64,000 nucleotides of DNA from Seonamhaeicola sp. S2-3 (GTDB taxonomy: Bacteria > Bacteroidota > Bacteroidia > Flavobacteriales > Flavobacteriaceae), in contig NZ_CP019389.1 in NCBI RefSeq assembly GCF_001971785.1, forward strand, positions 1,561,001-1,625,000, given 5' to 3'. The notes under the pieces are model-generated. The model was not told the origin of the DNA and did not search any database. It worked only from the letters and a program-made list of their open reading frames with translations. A program made the translations under genes and the position numbers. Shown piece by piece: positions 9,634 to 38,534 of this stretch (position 1 is the stretch's first letter; every line of letters starts with the position of its first letter).

Positions 9634-9807
9634 ATGAACTTAACCTACACAAATATGGAACCAAATCTACCTGAATTGCCTACAGTTGAAACTAGTGAAG
9701 AGGAACAAATACCTTTTAATGAAAGTAAATTAAAAGAAACCCTTCAAGAAAACATTAGGTTTTTTAAAAGTTTGCTGTATTTAACTAAGAAAATATTCAT
9801 GCTATAA
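9634..9807 (+). CDS. small acidic-to-basic hypothetical protein, 57 aa
   Basis: An ATG-started frame of 57 residues lies in an otherwise empty 390-base gap. It has a Pro/Glu-rich start (MEPNLPELPTVETSEEEQ from the internal Met 8) and an amphipathic basic end ([19 protein letters not shown]). It converges with the ABC gene and overlaps its stop by 6 bases; the shared end forms a hairpin. Met 8 (ATG 9655) is an alternative start. No family is recognised. The ordered composition suggests a real gene, but this is not proven. Confidence 0.45.
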   Translation: MNLTYTNMEPNLPELPTVETSEEEQIPFNESKLKETLQENIRFFKSLLYLTKKIFML

Positions 9808-9829
9808 CCCTTTGGGTATAGCATGAATT
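9796..9829. terminator. bidirectional terminator between convergent genes
   Basis: A 14-bp stem with one bulge (ttcatgctataaccc / gggtatagcatgaa) is followed on the plus strand by an A/T-rich run ending in six T's. It overlaps the last codons of both converging frames. Confidence 0.7.
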
Positions 9830-11481
9830 AATTTTTTAGTGTAGTCTTTTTTAGGGGTGTTGTAAATGGTATCGGCATCATCTAATTCTTCAATTTGTCC
9901 TTGATTCATAACCAATAATTGGTCGCTCATATATTTTACAACTGCTAGGTCGTGTGAAATAAATATATAAGTAAAACCAAAATCTTCTTTAAGCTCATTT
10001 AGCAGATTTAAAACTTGCGCTTGAACTGATATATCTAAAGCAGAAACAGATTCATCGCAAACAATTAGTTTAGGTTGCAGCGCAATAGTTCTAGCAATAC
10101 CAATACGTTGGCGTTGACCACCCGAAAACTCATGCGCATAACGGTTAAAATAATCTTCAGATAAGCCCACTTTATTTAATATTTCAACAACTTTTTCTTT
10201 TCGTTCTTTATCAGAATTAAAAAGGTTATGAACCTGCATAGGCTCCATTATAGCTTCGCCAACAGGAATTCTTGGGTTTAATGAAGAATAGGGGTCTTGA
10301 AATATAATTTGAATGTCTTTTCTAAGCTTTTTTATCTCTGTTTTTGAAAGTTTTGTAATATCAACACCGTTATATAAAATTTGTCCAGCCGTTGCTTTAT
10401 CTAATTGTAGAATGGCATTTCCTAAAGTAGATTTCCCGCAACCAGACTCACCAACCAATCCTAAAGTTTCACCCTCATAAAGTTTAAAACTTATATTATT
10501 TACAGCTTTAAAAGCTTTTGGTTTTGTAAACCAACCTGATTTTGAAAAATATGTTTTTTCAACATTTATAACCTCTAATAAAGGTGGCTTACTGTATATG
10601 TTTTTATGTTGAAGCTTTCGTTGTTCGTTACTTATTATTTCTGTTGAAATAGTATCGTTTAAATAGTCTTGAATTGTAGGGAGTACTTTTAATCTAACAT
10701 CTAAAGAAGGACGGGAATTAATAAGTGCTTTTGTGTAATTGTGCTTAGGCGATTTAAAGATATTAGAAACCATACCTTGCTCTACAATATTACCTTTATA
10801 CATTACTAAAACCCTATCTGCTATTTCTGAAATTAGTGCCAAATCGTGCGTTATAAAAATAACACTCATTTTAGTTTCTTCTTGAAGCGTTTTAAGCAGT
10901 TTTATAATGTCTTTTTGTACGGTAACATCTAAAGCTGTGGTAGGTTCGTCAGCAATTAAAATATCGGGTTTACAAGCAATGGCCATGGCTATCATAACAC
11001 GTTGTTTTTGTCCGCCCGAAATTTCATGCGGATACGATTTAAACACGCGCTGAGGTTCTGGAAGTTTTACTTTTTCAAATAGTGAAATAACTTCTGCCTT
11101 AACTTCAGGTTTTGATAAGTTTGTATGCTGAAATAATATTTCTTCAACTTGTTTACCACAGGTCATAGACGGGTTTAAAGAGCTCATGGGCTCCTGGAAA
11201 ATCATACTTATTTTATTGCCCCGAATGTTTTGATATTTTTTAGATGAAAGCGTTGTTAAATTTAAGTTGTTGTAAACAATACTTCCAGATGAAATTTTGG
11301 AAATATTTTTAGGAAGTAACCCAAGAATAGCTAAAGAAGATACAGATTTACCAGAACCAGATTCACCAACAATGCCAAGAATTTCGTTTTTATTTAAATG
11401 ATACGAAATGTTGTGAATAACTTCATTATTACCAAATGAAATGGTTAAATCTTTAACTGTTAAAATAGGTTTTTTATGCAT
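9802..11481 (-). CDS. ABC transporter ATPase with two fused nucleotide-binding domains (oligopeptide/YejF type)
   Basis: Two complete ATPase domains are fused in 559 residues. The first has the P-loop GESGSGKS (39-46), signature SGGQKQR and [12 protein letters not shown]; the second has GESGCGKS (344-351), SGGQRQR and [12 protein letters not shown]. Each is followed by the oligopeptide-type C-terminal extension. This is the OppD-OppF/DppD-DppF arrangement fused as in YejF or GsiA, which powers peptide import (or nickel or glutathione uptake) at the inner membrane. No permease or binding-protein gene is nearby. Its start overlaps the stop of the exonuclease gene by one base, so the two are co-translated. 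Confidence 0.9.
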
Positions 11482-29547: not shown

Positions 29548-29605
29548 CTAATTACAGCTGTCACTAAAAACCTAAGTGAAAGCCAAAAAATATAAAATTT
29601 ATAAA

Positions 29606-30388
29606 ATGAATTACAATAACTTAATAACCAGCTATAACAACGGTATTACAACAATAACCATTAATAGGCCAAAAAAGTTAAATGCCCTAAACCAAGAAAC
29701 TATACAAGAGTTACATAATGCATTTAAAGAAGCCAATTCAGATACTAATACTAAAGTTATTATTTTAACCGGAAGTGGTGAAAAAGCATTTGTTGCCGGA
29801 GCCGATATTAGTGAATTTGCAAACTTTAGTGTAGAAGAAGGTGAACATTTGGCTGCTAACGGACATAAAATTTTATTTGATTATATAGAAAATTTGGCAA
29901 CACCCGTTATTGCTGCAGTAAATGGGTTTGCTTTAGGTGGCGGGTTAGAATTAGCCATGGCTTGCCATTTTAGAGTAGCAAGTAATAATGCCAAAATGGG
30001 TTTACCCGAAGTGTCTCTAGGCGTTATTCCTGGGTATGGTGGTACCCAACGTTTACCACAGTTAATTGGGAAAGGGCGCGCTTTAGAAATGATTATGACA
30101 GCTACCATGATAGACGCTAATAAAGCCTTAAGCTACGGTTTAGTAAACAATGTTACTGCCCAAGAAGAACTATTACCATTTTGCGAAACTATAGCCCAAA
30201 AAATAACTCAAAACTCGTCTGTGGCTATTGCAGAAGCTATAAAAGCGGTTAATGCTAACAGTAAAGATGGTGTTAACGGATTTGAGGTAGAAATTAAAGG
30301 CTTTGGTAAATGCTTTGGAACCGAAGATTTTACCGAAGGTACCACCGCTTTTTTAGAAAAACGAAAAGCTGATTTTCCTGGGAGGTAG
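29606..30388 (+). CDS. enoyl-CoA hydratase (crotonase family)
   Basis: The enzyme hydrates 2-enoyl-CoA, for example in fatty-acid or amino-acid degradation. Crotonase signatures are clear: ALNQETIQEL near the N-terminus, the oxyanion segment KAFVAGADISEF and ALGGGLELAMAC, and catalytic Glu residues in MGLPEVSLGVIPGYGGTQRL. Length 260 residues is normal. The ATG at 29606 is preferred; an upstream GTG adds 10 Lys-rich residues unlike the family. It follows the kinase gene by 58 bases. Confidence 0.95.
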   Translation: MNYNNLITSYNNGITTITINRPKKLNALNQETIQELHNAFKEANSDTNTKVIILTGSGEKAFVAGADISEFANFSVEEGEHLAANGHKILFDYIENLATPVIAAVNGFALGGGLELAMACHFRVASNNAKMGLPEVSLGVIPGYGGTQRLPQLIGKGRALEMIMTATMIDANKALSYGLVNNVTAQEELLPFCETIAQKITQNSSVAIAEAIKAVNANSKDGVNGFEVEIKGFGKCFGTEDFTEGTTAFLEKRKADFPGR

Positions 30389-30548
30389 GTTTTGGGAGCG
30401 TTTAATGGTTAGTGTATGGATACTGGGGCAGATTCGAAATTCACTTTCGGTTAAGAACGAATTTTGACACGAGTCAATAACCTTGAATTTATTACTGTTT
30501 CGCCTATTTTTTATAAACTTTGTTAAGTGCTGATGTTTCATTTTAGTT
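30389..30548. other. non-coding junction before an accessory operon
   Basis: No gene was found in these 160 bases. They contain a partly self-complementary patch (gaaattcactttcggttaagaacgaatttt) and the phrase gtatggatactggggcagattcg. They separate the enoyl-CoA hydratase gene from the end of the DprA-like gene. The base pattern differs from the usual intergenic style of the window, which fits the edge of an inserted segment. Confidence 0.4.
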
Positions 30549-31538
30549 CTATCCGAAAAGGTCTCTTTGAATTTCTATTTTTCTTTTATTACTTGATTTA
30601 ATTTTATCAATCATTTTATGTAATGTCTTTTGGGTTAAAATAGTAATGTCCTTCTGTTCAACAATTAATTGCCTGTTTAAGTCAAACATTGGATTCTTTA
30701 TATCAGCATTTTGGTCATACATTACTGCTCGGGGAATATTGTAATCTTTCGCAAAACCCATCGCTAATCTTGCACCACTATCTAATTTTTGATCAAATAT
30801 CTTCCAACGTTGTGCAGAGTCTTGAGCATAACTTGCAGCCAAAATTATTGCATCACAAAAAAGAGCTTGTAATCTGTCTCGGTCTTTGTATCGACTACTT
30901 AAATCCATTGCAGATTTATGCTCATCATAGTATTCAGTAACCAATAATCCCCCTTCTTTAAAAATCTCAAAAGCCAAAGCCTTATTTCTAGCAGGCAATA
31001 TCTTTGAAAGTGGGCTAGGTAAAATTGCTACAGTCTTACCACCAATTAATGCCTGCTTGTGAGCTATACTATCGCATCCAAATGCTAACCCACTAACTAT
31101 AGTAACATCCTTTTTTACAATTTCTTCAACTATTTTTCTCTCTCTACTTTCGATTGTTTCGTCTGGATTTAAAAGTCCTATTACGGCAATACAATCATTA
31201 TCGAGGTCTAAAAGGCTTAAATCTCCTTTATAGAATAGAAAAATAGGTTTTTCACTATCCTTAACTGTTCCTCTGTGTTTAGGAAAGTCTTTGTCACCAA
31301 TAGCAACAACTCCATCACAGCTATCTTCTAATTTTTCAATTTGATTGACGACTTGCTTCTTTTCAAATTCAAAATCTTCATTCGTTATTAAATCAAATTG
31401 TTTTGATTTGGTATTTAGTAATGAGACAATATATTCAACACTCTCATTGCCTTTCAGGTTCTTGTTTATCCAAGCTCTACCTATGCCTTTAAAAGATTTT
31501 GTGGTTATTATATTAATTGCGTTATCAGTATACTTCAT
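30549..31538 (-). CDS. DprA-like (SLOG/Rossmann) protein in an accessory operon
   Basis: The central region has the DprA/Smf core: CIAVIGLLNPDE, VTIVSGLAFGCDSIAHKQAL, KTVAILPSPLSKILPARN and RLQALFCDAIILAAS. The canonical SGLARGID Arg is replaced by Phe, and no C-terminal winged helix is obvious in the 329 residues. Canonical DprA loads RecA on incoming DNA; relatives in accessory operons are predicted to bind nucleotides or nucleic acid in conflict systems. It is the last gene of a three-gene run with a phosphoribosyltransferase and a HAD phosphatase, 22 bases after the former. Role is inferred. Confidence 0.82.
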   Translation of the reverse strand: MKYTDNAINIITTKSFKGIGRAWINKNLKGNESVEYIVSLLNTKSKQFDLITNEDFEFEKKQVVNQIEKLEDSCDGVVAIGDKDFPKHRGTVKDSEKPIFLFYKGDLSLLDLDNDCIAVIGLLNPDETIESRERKIVEEIVKKDVTIVSGLAFGCDSIAHKQALIGGKTVAILPSPLSKILPARNKALAFEIFKEGGLLVTEYYDEHKSAMDLSSRYKDRDRLQALFCDAIILAASYAQDSAQRWKIFDQKLDSGARLAMGFAKDYNIPRAVMYDQNADIKNPMFDLNRQLIVEQKDITILTQKTLHKMIDKIKSSNKRKIEIQRDLFG

Positions 31539-31560
31539 CTTGTTTTGATTGATTTTGAGT

Positions 31561-32199
31561 TTACAAATTTAGTTTAGCACCAATTGAGTAAAAAATAACA
31601 GAATTTGCTCCTTTATCAAAAAGTGCTTGAATCGCGTCTTCGTCAATATTGACTGAATGTGTGTAAAGGTCATCAATGAGTAAAATGTCTTTTCCTTTTA
31701 AATTTATTGAAAAGTCACAAGTGTTTACTGTAATATTTGGATATGGCATATCACCATTACCACCGTACCCCCTTCTTGCTCTATGAGTTGTTTTGGTATC
31801 TTTGACCCGCTTTATATATTCTGTTCCGTCTATGAGACCTGGCAATTGATTTGCTACTGTGCTAACTGTTTTTTTGAAATAAAGTTGATTTGGGTTGTAA
31901 TTTACCTTAGCTCTAGGAACTACACATACAATAAGGCTATTCTTCCCTGATATTTTCAAAACATGAGGTAAATCTTTTTTTAGTATATTTTCCAATTGAC
32001 CACTTACATTTTGAAGCACATCTTCAGTATAGGGGGTAATGTCGTTTTTGAGTGTGCAAATAATATTTTCTATTGAACCTTTGACTCGCCATTGTCCTGC
32101 ACCACTTGAGTATTTTGAATTAAAATACGCTTGTACTTCTCTCTTCAAGTAGTAATTACCTTTGTGGTCTTTTGTCGGTGTAATTGTAAATTTCCACAT
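31561..32199 (-). CDS. phosphoribosyltransferase-like protein
   Basis: The C-terminal half carries a PRPP-loop motif, ILLIDDLYTHSVN, with the acidic pair before a Thr/Ser-rich loop; the preceding strand segment SLIVCVVPRAKVNYNPNQ fits the type I PRTase fold. The N-terminal 75 residues (MWKFTITPTKDHKGNYYL...) are unlike ComFC, which would have a zinc finger. Length is 212 residues. The gene lies 2 bases after the HAD gene and 22 before the DprA-like gene. The substrate base is unknown. Confidence 0.75.
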   Translation of the reverse strand: MWKFTITPTKDHKGNYYLKREVQAYFNSKYSSGAGQWRVKGSIENIICTLKNDITPYTEDVLQNVSGQLENILKKDLPHVLKISGKNSLIVCVVPRAKVNYNPNQLYFKKTVSTVANQLPGLIDGTEYIKRVKDTKTTHRARRGYGGNGDMPYPNITVNTCDFSINLKGKDILLIDDLYTHSVNIDEDAIQALFDKGANSVIFYSIGAKLNL

Positions 32200-32201
32200 A
32201 G

Positions 32202-32768
32202 TTAAACTGATATAATGTTTTCAATAGGAATACCTGCTTTAACAGCTTCATCTATTTCAAATGGTTCATTTTCGAATACAATTATCTTTCGAGGTTCTAA
32301 TTCAAGCATTTTTAGTGCGTTTTCAAATTTATTGATATGTTGGTCTTTATCAATTGACTTCCTAAATATTTTATATTTAAATTTGTTAGTCAAGCCGTGT
32401 TGCTTAAGTGTTATAATTGCTCTATTTTCTCTACTATTTGTCACCAAAACTGTGGTGTTGAGTTCAAAGAACTTATTCAAAACTTCATTTGCATAAGGTA
32501 TTAGCTTTGTCTGTCCGATATTTTCAGCGTACAACTTTTCTTTTAGTCCTATTATTTCTTGATACTCTTTATTGTTAAGATTTGGAAATTCTCTTTGTAA
32601 AATTGTTCGGTTAAACCTTTCATTTGGATTGAATGGAAGAAATTGTTTGGGGTTTATTACAGACTGAACAGCCATTTTAAAAGATAGATAGTTTGCGTAG
32701 TCCGTGTCAACCAATGTTCCATCCATATCAAAGAATAGGACTTTGTCCCGCGTGATGATTTTATTCAT
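32202..32768 (-). CDS. HAD superfamily phosphatase
   Basis: The 188-residue protein has HAD motif I VLFFDMDGTLVDT (Asp 14, Asp 16), motif II in VLVTNSREN, a conserved Lys in the following helix region, and an acidic motif IV IIVFENEPFEIDEAVKAGI. The layout with a helical cap after motif I is that of subclass I, phosphoglycolate-phosphatase-like enzymes. It is the first gene of the accessory operon, suggesting nucleotide or sugar-phosphate hydrolysis linked to the PRTase. Substrate is unknown. Confidence 0.85.
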   Translation of the reverse strand: MNKIITRDKVLFFDMDGTLVDTDYANYLSFKMAVQSVINPKQFLPFNPNERFNRTILQREFPNLNNKEYQEIIGLKEKLYAENIGQTKLIPYANEVLNKFFELNTTVLVTNSRENRAIITLKQHGLTNKFKYKIFRKSIDKDQHINKFENALKMLELEPRKIIVFENEPFEIDEAVKAGIPIENIISV

Positions 32769-32807
32769 GTCTAGTTGATTGTCTTTCTTTGCTATTATTG
32801 TTTCTGT

Positions 32808-32815
32808 TACATTTG
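32808..32815 (+). promoter_or_regulatory. plus-strand -7 promoter element in the divergent gap
   Basis: TACATTTG (followed by C) matches TAnnTTTG, with TTG at 32789-32791, 16 bases upstream. It points toward the radical SAM gene with a leader of about 180 bases. No equally good minus-strand element was seen for the HAD gene. Confidence 0.45.
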
Positions 32816-32994
32816 CACCTAACTTAAAGGTTAGACACTTTTCAAAGGTTTATATCTAAACTCAAACGAATATAATAACTTTGTGTACAAAATCAAATTG
32901 TTAATAACCCGTATATTCTTTAACATTTTTGGGTTAAGATTCTTTGTAGTTTTATAAAGTCAGGTATTCCAAAAAACTTTCTAATATTATTACT

Positions 32995-34068
32995 ATGAAC
33001 CCTAAATCTCCTTTAAAAGGGCGTGGTGCACAACTAAACGTTCCTAATAAATTCTTAGAATTTAGCCATGAAATGCGTAACGATTTTTTAGAGTTTTGCC
33101 ACAAAGAAGGAGAACAAGCAGATAAAAATAAAACACGTTACTTAGAGGTGTTTCCTAAAACCATAGTTAACAAAGTTAAAAGCCCCGATATAGGCATGAT
33201 GTATAGCATGAATGCCTACCAAGGTTGCGAACATGGTTGTATTTATTGTTATGCTCGTAACACCCATGAATATTGGGGTTACAGTGCGGGTTTAGATTTT
33301 GAGAGGCGTATTTTGGTAAAAAAAGATGCTCCTAAATTGTTAGAAAATTTACTGAAAAAAAAGCACTGGAAAGCGCACCCCATTGTAATGTCTGGTAATA
33401 CCGATTGTTACCAACCAGCAGAACAAATTTATAACATTACAAGGCAATGTTTACAGGTTTTTTTAAAGTACAAACATCCTGTTGCTATTATTACTAAAAA
33501 TGCTTTAATTCTACGCGATTTAGATATTTTAAAAGCCCTTGCTAAAGATAATTTAATTGGAGTTAATATTTCAATAACCTCTTTATCAGAACAAACAAGA
33601 CGTGTTTTAGAACCTAGAACGGCTACTATAAAACGCCGATTAGAAACCGTAAAAACTTTAACAGATAATGGTATTCCTGTAAATGTAATGCTTGCACCTA
33701 TTATTCCGGCAATTAATAGTCATGAAATCCTACCACTAGCCAAAGCAGCTGCAGATTACGGAGCATTTTCTGTGGCACACACTATTGTTAGACTTAATGG
33801 TGCTATTGGCGAAATTTTTACAGATTGGGTAAAAAAAACAATGCCCGATAGGGCAGACAAAGTGTTGCACCAAATAGAAAGTTGCCACAGTGGTAGTTTA
33901 AACAACAGTAGATTTGGTTCCCGAATGCATGGTGAAGGAAAAATTGCAGATAATATTAATAGCTTAATAAAATTAGCTAAGCAAAAGTATTTTAAACATA
34001 AAAAAATGCCCAAACTTAACTGCGATTTGCATGAGCAGTTTAAGGATGGACAATTAAAATTGTTTTGA
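32995..34068 (+). CDS. radical SAM protein, PA0069 family
   Basis: The cluster motif CEHGCIYCYARN (C-x3-C-x2-C) and the preceding GMMYSMNAYQG identify the PA0069/Rv2578c-type radical SAM family, related to spore photoproduct lyase. Further conserved words are HPIVMSGNTDCYQPAE and VMLAPIIPAINSHEI. Length is 357 residues. The N-terminus starts with KSPLKGRGAQLNVPNKF, also family-typical. The reaction is not known; a DNA or nucleotide substrate is often proposed. It is divergent from the accessory operon. Confidence 0.9.
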   Translation: MNPKSPLKGRGAQLNVPNKFLEFSHEMRNDFLEFCHKEGEQADKNKTRYLEVFPKTIVNKVKSPDIGMMYSMNAYQGCEHGCIYCYARNTHEYWGYSAGLDFERRILVKKDAPKLLENLLKKKHWKAHPIVMSGNTDCYQPAEQIYNITRQCLQVFLKYKHPVAIITKNALILRDLDILKALAKDNLIGVNISITSLSEQTRRVLEPRTATIKRRLETVKTLTDNGIPVNVMLAPIIPAINSHEILPLAKAAADYGAFSVAHTIVRLNGAIGEIFTDWVKKTMPDRADKVLHQIESCHSGSLNNSRFGSRMHGEGKIADNINSLIKLAKQKYFKHKKMPKLNCDLHEQFKDGQLKLF

Positions 34069-34254: not shown

Positions 34255-34854
34255 CTAATTACTTATGTATTTGGTAAATTCTCTATTGTTTGTATGAAAT
34301 ACAATTTTATATCTACTATTACCCTCTAGTTTGTAAACTCTTTCAATAGTTTGAACACCTTTAATGGTTTCGCTGTGTAATAATTCAGCAGTACCATTGT
34401 TAAGCCCGTAAATTTTAATTTTTAAAGGTTCAAAGTTTGTAGCTAGTTTTGTAATGTAAACTAATCCATTTTCTTCTCTTACAAAAGGTTTAAAAATAGT
34501 AGTTTCTTTTTCTTTGTTAAAGGTTACCTCGTTAGACTTTACGGTAAACGGAATGGTTTTAATTTCCATATCTTTCTCTAATTCAAAGAAATAGTTTCCG
34601 TCTGGTAAATCGGTTAAATCAAAACCCTTAGTGTAAACACCAGCTTGATTTATAACTTCTTTATATATAGTAGTACCGTAATTGTCTTTAATTGAAAGTA
34701 GGTTACCCTCTTTTACATCAACAATAGTTAATGCGGTTCTTTTGAGATCTTTACCAATTTTATTGATAATGATTTCATTAGCATATCCCATAACCGTAGC
34801 CATCATTGCTACCGTTAAGATTACTTTTTTAGTGTTTGTTAATACGTTTTTCAT
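34255..34854 (-). CDS. secreted tandem paralog 1
   Basis: A 199-residue protein with a Sec signal peptide (MKNVLTNTKKVILTVAMMAT..., cleavage after about VMGYA) and two beta-rich halves. The word FDLTDLPDGNYFFELEKD resembles the conserved strands of type IX sorting domains and DUF3244-like folds, but no sorting domain is proven. It is almost identical to paralog 2 over the first 140 residues and differs mainly at the C-terminus. Its own promoter and terminator flank it. The function is unknown; an exported beta-sandwich protein is the best description. Confidence 0.8.
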   Translation of the reverse strand: MKNVLTNTKKVILTVAMMATVMGYANEIIINKIGKDLKRTALTIVDVKEGNLLSIKDNYGTTIYKEVINQAGVYTKGFDLTDLPDGNYFFELEKDMEIKTIPFTVKSNEVTFNKEKETTIFKPFVREENGLVYITKLATNFEPLKIKIYGLNNGTAELLHSETIKGVQTIERVYKLEGNSRYKIVFHTNNREFTKYISN

Positions 34855-34882
34855 GATTTGGTGTTTTTAACGTTTTACACTA

Positions 34883-34890
34883 CAAATATA
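34883..34890 (-). promoter_or_regulatory. -7 element of paralog 1
   Basis: On the minus strand TATATTTG is an exact TAnnTTTG match, 29 bases before the start codon. The same box recurs upstream of paralog 2 and the ghost copy. Confidence 0.65.
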
Positions 34891-35155
34891 TGGCGAGTTT
34901 TTAGTGTGTAAAACATTGATATTGACTAATTTATGTGCTAAATTATCCGTTAAATTTATGCTAAGTTTACGTTAAGTTAAAATACTATATTACTGGGTTA
35001 ATACCATATATTTTTATACAGTGCTAGGTTTTCTGTTTTGGTTTTATATACAAGAAAAATTATTAGCCATTTTTAATAGACTCTATAATTAATTGTAAGT
35101 TGAAGTGTTATAATTTTTTTTGAAGAAGAATACAGAAAGAAAAGTTTATGCAAAA

Positions 35156-35181
35156 AAAAGTGGGCTACCACAGCCCACTTT
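35156..35181 (-). terminator. terminator of paralog 2
   Basis: A stem of aaagtgggct / agcccacttt with loop accac lies 33 bases beyond the stop. A and T runs flank it. Confidence 0.8.
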
Positions 35182-35213
35182 ACCAACTAAACTAAACTAA
35201 ATAAGACATTAAA

Positions 35214-35810
35214 CTAATAATTAATGAATTTTGTAAATTCTCTGTTATTTGTATGAAATACAATTTTATATTTTCCTTTTTCTATTTTGAAAATTCTTTC
35301 AATATTTTGAACACCTTTAATGGTTTCGCTGTGTAACATGTCAGTACTACCATTGTTAAGCCCGTAAATTTTAATTTTTAAAGGTTCTAAGTTTACAGCT
35401 AGTTTTGTAATGTAAACTAATCCATTTTCTTCTCTTACAAAAGGTTTAAAAATAGTAGTTTCTTTTTCTTTGTTAAAGGTTACCTCGTTAGACTTTACGG
35501 TAAACGGAATGGTTTTAACTTCCATATCTTTCTCTAATTCAAAGAAATAGTTTCCGTCTGGTAAATCGGTTAAATCAAAACCTTTAGTGTAAACACCAGC
35601 TTGATTTATAACTTCTTTATATATAGTAGTACCGTAATTGTCTTTAATTGAAAGTAGGTTACCCTCTTTTACATCAACAATAGTTAATGCGGTTCTTTTG
35701 AGATCTTTACCAATTTTATTGATAATGATTTCATTAGCATATCCCATAACCGTAGCCATCATTGCTACCGTTAAGATTACTTTTTTAGTGTTTGTTAATA
35801 CGTTTTTCAT
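35214..35810 (-). CDS. secreted tandem paralog 2
   Basis: A 198-residue secreted protein with the same signal peptide and N-terminal two thirds as paralog 1 (differences such as Ile to Val in MEVKT). The last 45 residues differ: GSTDMLHSETIKGVQNIE and IFKIEKGKYKIVF share the shorter KGKYK form with paralog 3. This mosaic pattern suggests gene conversion. Function is unknown. It has its own promoter and hairpin terminator. Confidence 0.8.
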   Translation of the reverse strand: MKNVLTNTKKVILTVAMMATVMGYANEIIINKIGKDLKRTALTIVDVKEGNLLSIKDNYGTTIYKEVINQAGVYTKGFDLTDLPDGNYFFELEKDMEVKTIPFTVKSNEVTFNKEKETTIFKPFVREENGLVYITKLAVNLEPLKIKIYGLNNGSTDMLHSETIKGVQNIERIFKIEKGKYKIVFHTNNREFTKFINY

Positions 35811-35838
35811 GATTTGGTGTTTTTAACGTTTTACACTA

Positions 35839-35846
35839 CAAATATA
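35839..35846 (-). promoter_or_regulatory. -7 element of paralog 2
   Basis: Minus-strand TATATTTG, an exact TAnnTTTG match, 29 bases before the start codon. Confidence 0.65.
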
Positions 35847-36111
35847 TGGTGAGTTTTAAGCGCAGAAAACATTGATATTGACTAATTTGTATGCTAAATT
35901 ATCTGTTAAATTTACGCTAAGTTTATGTTAAGTTAAAATACCATACATTTAGGTTAATACCATATATTTTTATACAGTGCTAGGTTTTCTGTTTTGGTTT
36001 TATATACAAGAAAATTATTAGTCATTTTTAATAGACTCTATAATTAATTGTAAGTTGAAGTGTTATAATTTTTTTGAAGAAGAATACAGGAAAGAAAAGT
36101 TTCTGCAAAAA

Positions 36112-36138
36112 AAAAGTGGGCCACCACAGCCCACTTTA
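36112..36138 (-). terminator. terminator of paralog 3
   Basis: A stem of aaagtgggc / gcccacttt around a caccaca-type loop lies about 27 bases after the stop, followed by an A/T run on the minus strand. The same hairpin stands alone at 38779. Confidence 0.8.
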
Positions 36139-36164
36139 CCAACTAAACTAAATAAGACATTAAA

Positions 36165-36752
36165 CTAATTATTAATGAATTTTGTAAACTCTTTGTTATT
36201 AGACTTTAAAACCAATTTGTATTTTCCAGTTTTAAGTTTAAAAGCTCTTTCTATAACTTGTGTACCTTTAATAGTTTCGGTATGTAACAATTCGTTTGTA
36301 CCGTTATTACTGTATATGCTTATTTTTAAAGATTCGTAGTTTGGGGCAAACTTTGTAATATTGAGCATGTTGTTTTTTACAATGGCAACTGGCTTAAAAA
36401 TAATGGTCTCTTCAGCTTTATTAAATGTTACTTTGTTTTTAGTTACTGAAAATGGAATGGTTTTTATTTGAACATCTTTATCAAGTTCAAAAAAGTAATT
36501 ACCATTAGGAAGTTCAGATAAATCAAATCCTTTAGTATATACTCCAGATTTTTCAATTAACTCTTTATATAAAATAAGACCGTTCGCATCTTTAATTGTA
36601 AGTAAGTTTCCTTCTTTTACATTATTAATTCTAAGATCAGTTTTTTTAACATCTTTAATAGTAGCGTTACCTTCAGATGCATAACCTATAACCGTAGCTA
36701 ACAATGCTACCATTAAGATTCCTTTTTTTGTGTTTACAATGATATTTTTCAT
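36165..36752 (-). CDS. secreted tandem paralog 3, diverged
   Basis: A 195-residue secreted protein with the same layout as paralogs 1 and 2 (MKNIIVNTKKGILMVALLAT signal, GFDLSELPNGNYFFELDKD, ETIKGTQVIERAFKLK). It is clearly more diverged across its whole length, so it is an older copy. Function is unknown. It is the gene nearest to the insertion sequence. Confidence 0.8.
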   Translation of the reverse strand: MKNIIVNTKKGILMVALLATVIGYASEGNATIKDVKKTDLRINNVKEGNLLTIKDANGLILYKELIEKSGVYTKGFDLSELPNGNYFFELDKDVQIKTIPFSVTKNKVTFNKAEETIIFKPVAIVKNNMLNITKFAPNYESLKISIYSNNGTNELLHTETIKGTQVIERAFKLKTGKYKLVLKSNNKEFTKFINN

Positions 36753-37598: not shown

Positions 37599-38534
37599 AT
37601 GTCCGGAAAAAGGCTTCAAAGACATTATAAGGATCACTTAAGTGATTTTAAGCAATGGGAGCATAAGAGTCATGCTAAACAGTGGCTTGTTTTCCCTGAA
37701 AACTTAGGTTCTTATTTATCCATTGATGAGACAGCGCTGTCCAAGGGAGAGCTCTATACCATCATTACCAATAAGAAGGCCAAAGGAAAGAAAGGGGCTT
37801 TAGTTGGGATATTCCACGGAACTAAAGTGGAGCCTATTATCGAACAACTCTTGAAGATCCCAGCAAAAAAGCGTGCTAAAGTGAAAGAGATTACCTTAGA
37901 CATGGCTAACTCTATGAAAACAATCTCCACTAAATGTTTCCCGAAAGCCATCCAAGTAACAGACAGGTTCCATGTACAGAAGCTGGCAATAGAGGCGCTC
38001 CAAGATCTTCGTATCAAATACCGATGGGAAGCTTTGGATCAAGAAAATGAACAGATAAAGCTATCTAGAGCTGCCGACAAAGAATTTAAACCTGTAACTT
38101 TTTCTAATGGTGATAGCTCAAAACAACTCCTGGCCAGGAGTAGATATCTACTGTATAAATCCCCAGATAAATGGACTCCAAATCAGAAAGAGAGGGGACA
38201 GATATTGTTTAATGAATACCCAGAATTAAAGAAAGCTTATGGACTTGTTCAAGGCTTGAGGAATATTTTTAACCAAGCCATAGATATTAAAGTAGCTTAC
38301 ACCAAACTAGCCCACTGGTACAAAGATGTAGAGGAGTCAGGATTTAAGAGCTTCCAAACGGTAGCCAATAGTATTACTTTAAATTACCGCTCTGTACTCA
38401 ACTATTTTATAAACAGAAGTACTAATGCTTCAGCTGAATCCTTTAATGCCAAAGTAAAGGCTTTTAGATCTCAATTTAGGGGAGTCAGGAATACGGAATA
38501 CTTCTTATATCGCTTGATTAAATTATATTCTTAA
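37599..38534 (+). CDS. ISAon1-type transposase, catalytic DDE domain
   Basis: The 311-residue protein has an ISL3-type DDE core: first Asp in YLSIDETALSKG, second in ITLDMANSM, and Glu in NASAESFNAKVKAFRSQFRG. It catalyses cut-and-paste or copy-out movement of the element. The frame stays open upstream of the ATG to about 37540, so it may be made as a fusion with the N-terminal frame. No internal stops are seen, so it is probably active. Confidence 0.9.
   Translation: MSGKRLQRHYKDHLSDFKQWEHKSHAKQWLVFPENLGSYLSIDETALSKGELYTIITNKKAKGKKGALVGIFHGTKVEPIIEQLLKIPAKKRAKVKEITLDMANSMKTISTKCFPKAIQVTDRFHVQKLAIEALQDLRIKYRWEALDQENEQIKLSRAADKEFKPVTFSNGDSSKQLLARSRYLLYKSPDKWTPNQKERGQILFNEYPELKKAYGLVQGLRNIFNQAIDIKVAYTKLAHWYKDVEESGFKSFQTVANSITLNYRSVLNYFINRSTNASAESFNAKVKAFRSQFRGVRNTEYFLYRLIKLYS

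Follow-up and report, generated by a model that had tools for sequence, protein, structure and literature searches.

A block of three genes in Seonamhaeicola sp. S2-3, a member of the Flavobacteriaceae, probably encodes a ShosTA-like toxin-antitoxin module that was acquired horizontally as a gene cassette, with the toxin ShosT split between a HAD gene and a phosphoribosyltransferase (PRTase) gene. The block lies in a stretch of 64,000 nucleotides (contig NZ_CP019389.1, positions 1,561,001 to 1,625,000), referred to here as the window, and its third gene encodes a DprA-like protein. The genes of this trio are separated by 2 bases (HAD/PRTase) and 22 bases (PRTase/DprA-like). An original prediction, made from the letters of the window, had described a minus-strand block with these gaps between two unrelated genes, and the coordinates of the open reading frames (ORFs) and the Pfam matches of the flanks agree with it. 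It had also taken the block for an uncharacterised system, a description that can no longer be kept: PRTase plus DprA-like corresponds to ShosTA, and HAD plus PRTase is the architecture of ShosT from Pseudomonas phage PfAC02a. The three genes are:

32202-32768, minus strand: HAD-superfamily phosphatase-like gene (188 amino acids, ATG start), proposed N-terminal half of a split ShosT.
31561-32199, minus strand: PRTase-fold gene (212 amino acids, ATG start), proposed catalytic half of ShosT and predicted toxin.
30549-31538, minus strand: DprA-like gene (329 amino acids, ATG start), proposed ShosA (antitoxin/DNA sensor).

The PRTase was matched by Pfam only at chance level (E 0.073), and its fold was taken from structure prediction. 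When the AF2/AlphaFold model (predicted local distance difference test, pLDDT, 91.8) was compared by Foldseek with 350,542 chains of the Protein Data Bank (PDB), the first three matches by E-value were ShosT entries (8zvc, 1.3e-5; then 8zvb and 8zvd). Across 35 aligned sequences of the family there is no change at D176, D177, Y179, T180 or N184-D188, and according to the model the protein is a PRTase effector of the ShosT fold with the DD pair of the phosphoribosyl pyrophosphate (PRPP) site. Comparison of the PRTase alignment with ShosT by HHalign gave 64% over 48 columns for PfAC02a and 90% over 60 columns for phage P2_4C9. The PRTase proteins of three related loci (L017, L020 and L027) are 313-371 amino acids long and carry extra regions.

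The DprA-like protein contains the Pfam domain DNA_processg_A (residues 77-235, E 8e-33), and its sequence makes it the candidate ShosA of the locus. No winged-helix model was among the Pfam matches listed, as had been predicted. In the PDB, searched by sequence, entry 8zva (8.5e-16) and the ShosA entry 9vzo (9.1e-16) ranked ahead of DprA 3uqz (5.9e-12), whereas the other DprA of the genome gave the reverse order, with 3uqz first (7e-34) and ShosA lower (5e-25). The Gln of the motif R[DN]R[IL]Q (R-D-R-L-Q) is present in 49/49 rows of the family and in all three phage ShosA-type proteins examined, and its position is occupied by Ile in 7/7 dprA products of the genus. It had been argued that the absence of the Arg of SGLARGID sets this protein apart. 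The Arg is absent (residues 149-156 read SGLAFGCD), but the same holds for all seven conserved dprA products in the genus, which read SGFAYGTD, so its loss is no discriminator.

The HAD protein was matched by Pfam HAD_2 (E 5e-13), and the best Foldseek matches of its AF2 model (pLDDT 94.3) were HAD-family phosphatases and beta-phosphoglucomutases. An alignment of 35 sequences shows no variation at D14, D16, T18, K147 and E166; the Asp of motif I is retained, and the last HAD motif is E-N-E, not an Asp pair. HHalign aligned the HAD family with PfAC02a ShosT at 75% probability, over the second half of the domain. PfAC02a ShosT is a single protein of 478 amino acids annotated HAD/PRTase (Pfam HAD_2 3.9e-23, Pribosyltran 1.2e-8), and HAD and PRTase form one ORF in L041 and L050, two members of the window's own family. 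Because HAD and PRTase stand in one protein in these three cases, the window pair is best read as a split ShosT, the HAD-like part of which would, by sequence, be a separate gene here. The two-gene ShosTA layout with a single ShosT polypeptide was not found in the window and, as there are three genes, the trio is called a variant rather than plain ShosTA.

The resemblance to ShosTA thus lies in DprA-like, PRTase and HAD-like domains in a compact locus, the PRTase fold, the Gln motif and carriage on mobile elements, whereas ShosT is split in most of the window's family, the sequences are very divergent and carriage is on Bacteroidota cassettes. In phage P2_4C9, a protein of 424 amino acids matches the solved ShosT (PDB 8zvb and others) over its full length and the PADLOC ShosT model PDLC03012 with E 3e-294; the DprA gene comes first there, unlike in the window family. 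A locus of Salmonella phage SopEPhi (L056) has a DprA-like gene beside a stand-alone PRTase that scored 22.2 bits against the family profile (ten sequences searched), but the annotated neighbours listed include no HAD.

Passages of a review that cites Pu et al. 2025 (Nat Commun 16:3141) credit ShosT with PRTase and pyrophosphatase activity. According to them, the resulting change of the purine pool leads to DNA duplications, filamentation and death, ShosA is a DNA-binding protein that counteracts ShosT, and T7 Gp0.7 triggers ShosTA. In passages of Rousset 2022, E. coli carrying DprA plus a PRTase is reported to be protected from T7 and lambda, and syrTA is named alongside RqlHI. RqlHI resembles the trio in that toxicity of RqlH depends on a PRTase domain and is restrained by a partner, RqlI, with a DprA-homologous region; its PRTase differs in being fused to a RecQ-like helicase. 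The Ter system shares a HAD phosphoesterase and a PRTase, proposed to make a nucleotide derivative, but the description consulted includes no DprA. The literature consulted comprised passages of PMC12593503, PMC9122126, PMC4670107, PMC11878078, PMC10732053, PMC7824862 and PMC5512222. The literature searched makes no mention of a split form of ShosT; Pu et al. 2025 lay outside it, so the form is not claimed to be absent from print.

The trio is considered a toxin-antitoxin defence module because of its analogy with ShosTA, with DprA plus PRTase and with RqlHI, and it is from these relatives that toxicity, neutralisation, trigger, substrate, defence and the action of HAD and PRTase as one toxin are proposed. 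The HAD phosphatase and the PRTase would jointly do the job of the single HAD-PRTase ShosT. With PRPP bound, such a toxin may form or split a purine nucleotide or the phosphates on it, and the disturbed nucleotide pool could lead to DNA damage. In the healthy cell the DprA-like protein would act as a ShosA-type antitoxin that binds DNA and restrains or repairs the effect of the toxin. Phage infection might alter the DNA-protein complexes and release the toxin to act, so that the infected cell would stop before phage release. The earlier suggestion of a nucleotide-processing or nucleic-acid-sensing, possibly defensive role is supported as to direction, since the system closest to it among those known is a toxin-antitoxin pair acting against phage; defence by the trio itself is put forward by analogy.

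Co-occurrence of the trio across genomes had been proposed as a test, and it is observed. Genome contigs were scanned with only the PRTase as query, which gave 49 loci, hosted by Bacteroidota, Chloroflexota, Planctomycetota, Pseudomonadota and one archaeal metagenome-assembled genome (MAG). The DprA-like gene lies 3' of the PRTase in 47/47 loci where the contig continues; in L015 and L047 the contig ends before that position. A HAD match precedes the PRTase in 39 of the 46 assessable loci, 37 times as a separate ORF and twice fused (L035, L040 and L051 cannot show a HAD because their contigs start at most 160 bp upstream of the PRTase). The separate ORFs overlap the PRTase or lie less than 200 bp away in 33 loci, and four are found at 235-1,139 bp (L016, L033, L031 and L023). 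L031 and L033 have a broken PRTase reading frame. The three genes form a conserved unit, and their grouping is not due to chance.

The distribution of the PRTase is sporadic. It was found in one of 199 genomes of the family (and was absent from the 198 others), and three of 395 genomes sampled from the phylum carried it, including the window's; in all of these the HAD and DprA-like genes accompany it. The two additional genomes appear to be already among the 49 loci, as the L009 genome (identical rows) and the L012 genome (identical gene coordinates), and are therefore not independent. One match to the window PRTase was obtained among plasmids and none among phages, and a plasmid of Synechocystis carries the same trio with an Abi-family gene next upstream. 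Among viral contigs the ShosT of PfAC02a remained without a match; the window PRTase had one there, L057, in which no DprA-like gene was found. L057:3402-5594 holds a 288-amino-acid extension fused to the HAD, then the PRTase, then an ORF that looks by eye like an integrase.

The trio had been predicted not to be ordinary competence machinery. This is upheld, and the DprA-like gene is not the sole housekeeping dprA. The trio PRTase is absent from the six other genomes of the genus and so occurs in 1/7, while each of the seven has another DprA homologue. Housekeeping DprA and ComFC belong to the same superfamilies, but the window's genome carries a separate DprA homologue and another PRTase, labelled ComFC-like by eye only, elsewhere. 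Housekeeping competence genes were rejected as an identification on these grounds.

The position of the trio was compared among the genomes of the genus, and the following features surround it:

29576-30388, plus strand: enoyl-CoA hydratase gene (Pfam), present in 7/7 genus genomes, outside the system.
30392-32863: inserted block of about 2.47 kb, absent from sister genome G202 (blastn).
30398-30532, minus strand: putative cassette end with a decayed attC-like site, immediately behind the DprA-like gene (covariance model R1).
32995-34068, plus strand: radical-SAM gene (Pfam), present in 7/7 genus genomes, outside the system.

In G202 the enoyl-CoA hydratase and radical-SAM genes are adjacent, 0.2 kb apart, and in the other five genomes the interval holds different ORFs, 14 kb of them in G203. 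The interval (L079-L084 in the genus genomes) is a variable insertion site that is empty in G202. When the G202 interval was compared by blastn, homology ended at window position 30391 and resumed at 32864, which places an insertion of about 2.47 kb in the window. The GC content of the trio is that of the window.

The manner of acquisition is suggested by the relatives. Loci in Flavobacterium stagni (L014), a Bacteroidetes MAG (L009) and a Chitinophagaceae MAG (L021) share 2.6 kb around the trio at 96-97% identity, and blastn (1e-20) of L009 and L021 against L014 gave no further shared stretch among the matches listed (L085, which appears to be the L009 locus, was left out of counts). Close relatives of the block thus appear to pass between species as a ready-made cassette. 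The shared block ends in a palindrome, of which L003 holds a related copy. Covariance model R1, of 139 positions, was built from seven sites, with the window and L036 excluded from training. On its 3' side the gene block carries an attC-like site in L003, L009, L014, L023, L025, L011, L004 and L036, six of which trained R1. Matches outside the training set comprised the site behind the DprA-like gene in L036 (61.6 bits), L014, a truncated site in L021, sites before the HAD gene in L023 and L020, and four more sites in L025. In the window, R1 gave a single listed match, at 30398-30532 on the minus strand (27.5 bits, E 0.0031 over 541 kb). It lies seven bases from the insertion boundary and aligns with the L036 site (3' core ATTA vs GTTA), and is read, from its sequence, as a decayed cassette end.

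Of five sites folded as single-stranded DNA, those of L003 (z -3.84) and L019 (z -4.44) formed hairpins stronger than shuffles, while L036 (z -0.86), L029 (z -0.42) and the window (z -0.23) were not beyond the shuffles. The genomes of L029 and L019 gave no R1 match, and neither site was counted, including that of L029, which we take to resemble a classical attC. R1 replaced an anchored-arm palindrome score that separated poorly: even a control site downstream of a conserved dprA gene (hk_L073) exceeded its 20 shuffles. Rfam at gathering scores found no match at the attC-like sites of four loci, and none at E 1 in the window stretch. The sites are termed attC-like, recombination at them being putative.

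A 13-kb contig of the L014 genome (L132, G588:C3:1-13085) is a cassette array: it carries 22 attC-like sites, one of them truncated where the contig stops, and the 20 ORFs retained (70 amino acids or longer) all lie on the same strand. Elsewhere, at L129:2617-8882, three genes that appear by eye to be type I restriction-modification-like end at a 143-bit attC-like site. An integron integrase was present in the L009/G210 genome (429.7 bits; NCBIfam cut-off 265), and none exceeded the cut-off in any other of the ten handles searched (two of them apparently one genome), L014's included. The window's genome likewise has no integron integrase over the cut-off; it has 12 attC-like sites at E<=0.01, of which seven lie on one strand at 3.03-3.08 Mb (G000:C1:3026995-3089234, L126-L128), the last about 7 kb from a tyrosine recombinase of 388 amino acids. 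Five copies of an ORF of 525 amino acids were seen in L127, on the opposite strand to the seven sites. As in integron gene cassettes, the gene block of several relatives is closed by a palindromic attC-like site, and such units also form arrays, whereas the window copy is solitary, its site is decayed and its genome is without an integron integrase over the cut-off.

A wider proposal, offered tentatively and rather doubtful as a whole, is that an integron-type cassette platform of Bacteroidota, with attC-like sites of about 139 nucleotides, routinely carries the split, three-gene form of ShosTA; a non-classical tyrosine recombinase might act on it in some genomes. The HAD, as a gene of its own, would then be a third functional component deciding the toxicity of the PRTase product, and isolated copies would settle outside arrays, as in the window.

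The observations in this paragraph, together with the failure to establish defence neighbours in the window described in the next, weigh against reading the trio as a ShosTA variant carried by a cassette. No HAD was found in seven of the 46 assessable loci (L018, L037, L039, L045, L046, L047 and L049), and in L007, L028 and L031 the match is only a fragment. ShosT was absent among the 50 listed of 1,039 Foldseek matches of the HAD model, HHalign of the HAD alignment against P2_4C9 ShosT gave 0.3%, and the Pfam matches of that ShosT fall below the cut-off (Hydrolase 2.9e-4, HAD_2 0.0047, Pribosyltran 1.1e-4). It had been stated that the PRTase is not ComFC-like; this is contradicted by ComF of H. 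pylori, the fourth Foldseek match by E-value, with a TM-score of 0.52 (of the query) against 0.43-0.49 for ShosT. The trio's DprA-like family lies far from the phage ShosA proteins in a DprA-family tree of 59 rows, where the phage rows are long-branched and only loosely placed. The window site fell below the E 0.01 cut in a whole-genome R1 search (150 of 1,928 candidates scored). A PADLOC profile search, proposed originally, did match the DprA-like protein to ShosA (E 4.7e-45) and the PRTase to ShosT (E 3.4e-9), but paralogues in the genome score better. The ShosT model matches 354/395 phylum genomes, the other PRTase of the genome (226-232 amino acids) reaches 6.8e-13, and two dprA products of the genus reach 6e-58 and 3e-56 on the ShosA model. 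As the own-genome PRTase and genus dprA products score better, the PADLOC models alone cannot identify the system. Models PDLC03961 and PDLC03962 (L002, L073, L117), used singly, may over-call ShosTA.

Proximity to defence genes had been proposed as a test; a defence island was sought in the window and not established. PADLOC at 1e-8 on the 57 other ORFs of at least 100 amino acids matched four models, three of which fall on one protein of 559 amino acids (9805-11481), read as a cross-hit between ATPases from a search of ten of the 57 proteins; the fourth is PDC-S48. Ten window neighbours were run through Pfam; no Ter gene was among them, and those with a match are mostly metabolic or regulatory. 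Around the relatives, 138 neighbouring proteins from 27/49 loci were searched (up to three per side, at least 130 amino acids, those above 1200 dropped). Among the Pfam matches listed (25 of 170 families) were N6_Mtase (3), AAA_21 (3), Phage_integrase (2) and DUF1016_N (2), and among the PADLOC matches listed (25 of 134 families) PDC-S02, PDC-M30A and AriA (2 each); these are plain counts, from which no enrichment is claimed.

Three other explanations were weighed against a split ShosT with its ShosA. Convergence, in which the same three-domain defence module was assembled separately from the phage-borne ShosTA, is unlikely. The long tree branches and the own-genome paralogues that score as well on the ShosTA models are in keeping with it, as is phmmer, which recovered neither phage ShosT with the window HAD and PRTase. 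It is opposed by the three domains shared with PfAC02a in the same order, by the common Gln signature, and by the PDB, where ShosT ranks first for the PRTase fold and ShosA entries rank first for the DprA-like sequence.

A tripartite system appears less likely again. The HAD would in that case be a second safeguard that dephosphorylates a toxic PRTase product, so that HAD and DprA-like would be two antitoxins. A dispensable detoxifier could be missing from some loci that retain the PRTase, as the HAD is from seven, and where present the HAD is separate, well conserved and has its motif I Asp. Fusion of HAD to PRTase in L041, L050 and the PfAC02a ShosT, however, suits one enzyme unit, and the review passages assign both the PRTase and the pyrophosphatase activity to ShosT itself. 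Least likely is an accessory operon for nucleotide salvage or DNA uptake that plays no part in defence. In its favour, PRTases, HAD phosphatases and DprA are generally known from metabolism or competence, ComF has the highest TM-score of the first four fold matches and the Pfam-matched window neighbours look mostly metabolic or regulatory. Such an operon is at odds with the sporadic distribution, the plasmid and cassette carriage, the additional DprA and ComFC-like genes of the genome and the rank of ShosT as best PRTase fold match by E-value.

Beyond the radical-SAM gene, the window holds three tandem paralogues of 195-199 amino acids (34255-36752) that look secreted by eye, two of them very alike; one was searched in Pfam and gave no match. 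An ISL3-family transposase (Pfam DDE_Tnp_ISL3) lies at 37599-38531.

For annotation, the PADLOC ShosT and ShosA models, used singly, fail to separate such copies of the system from PRTases and DprA of the same genome. If the trio is a ShosTA variant, the natural split means that HAD and PRTase can be removed one at a time, making it testable which of them kills and which is controlled by the DprA-like partner. The family would also connect toxin-antitoxin defence with the cassette arrays of Bacteroidota.

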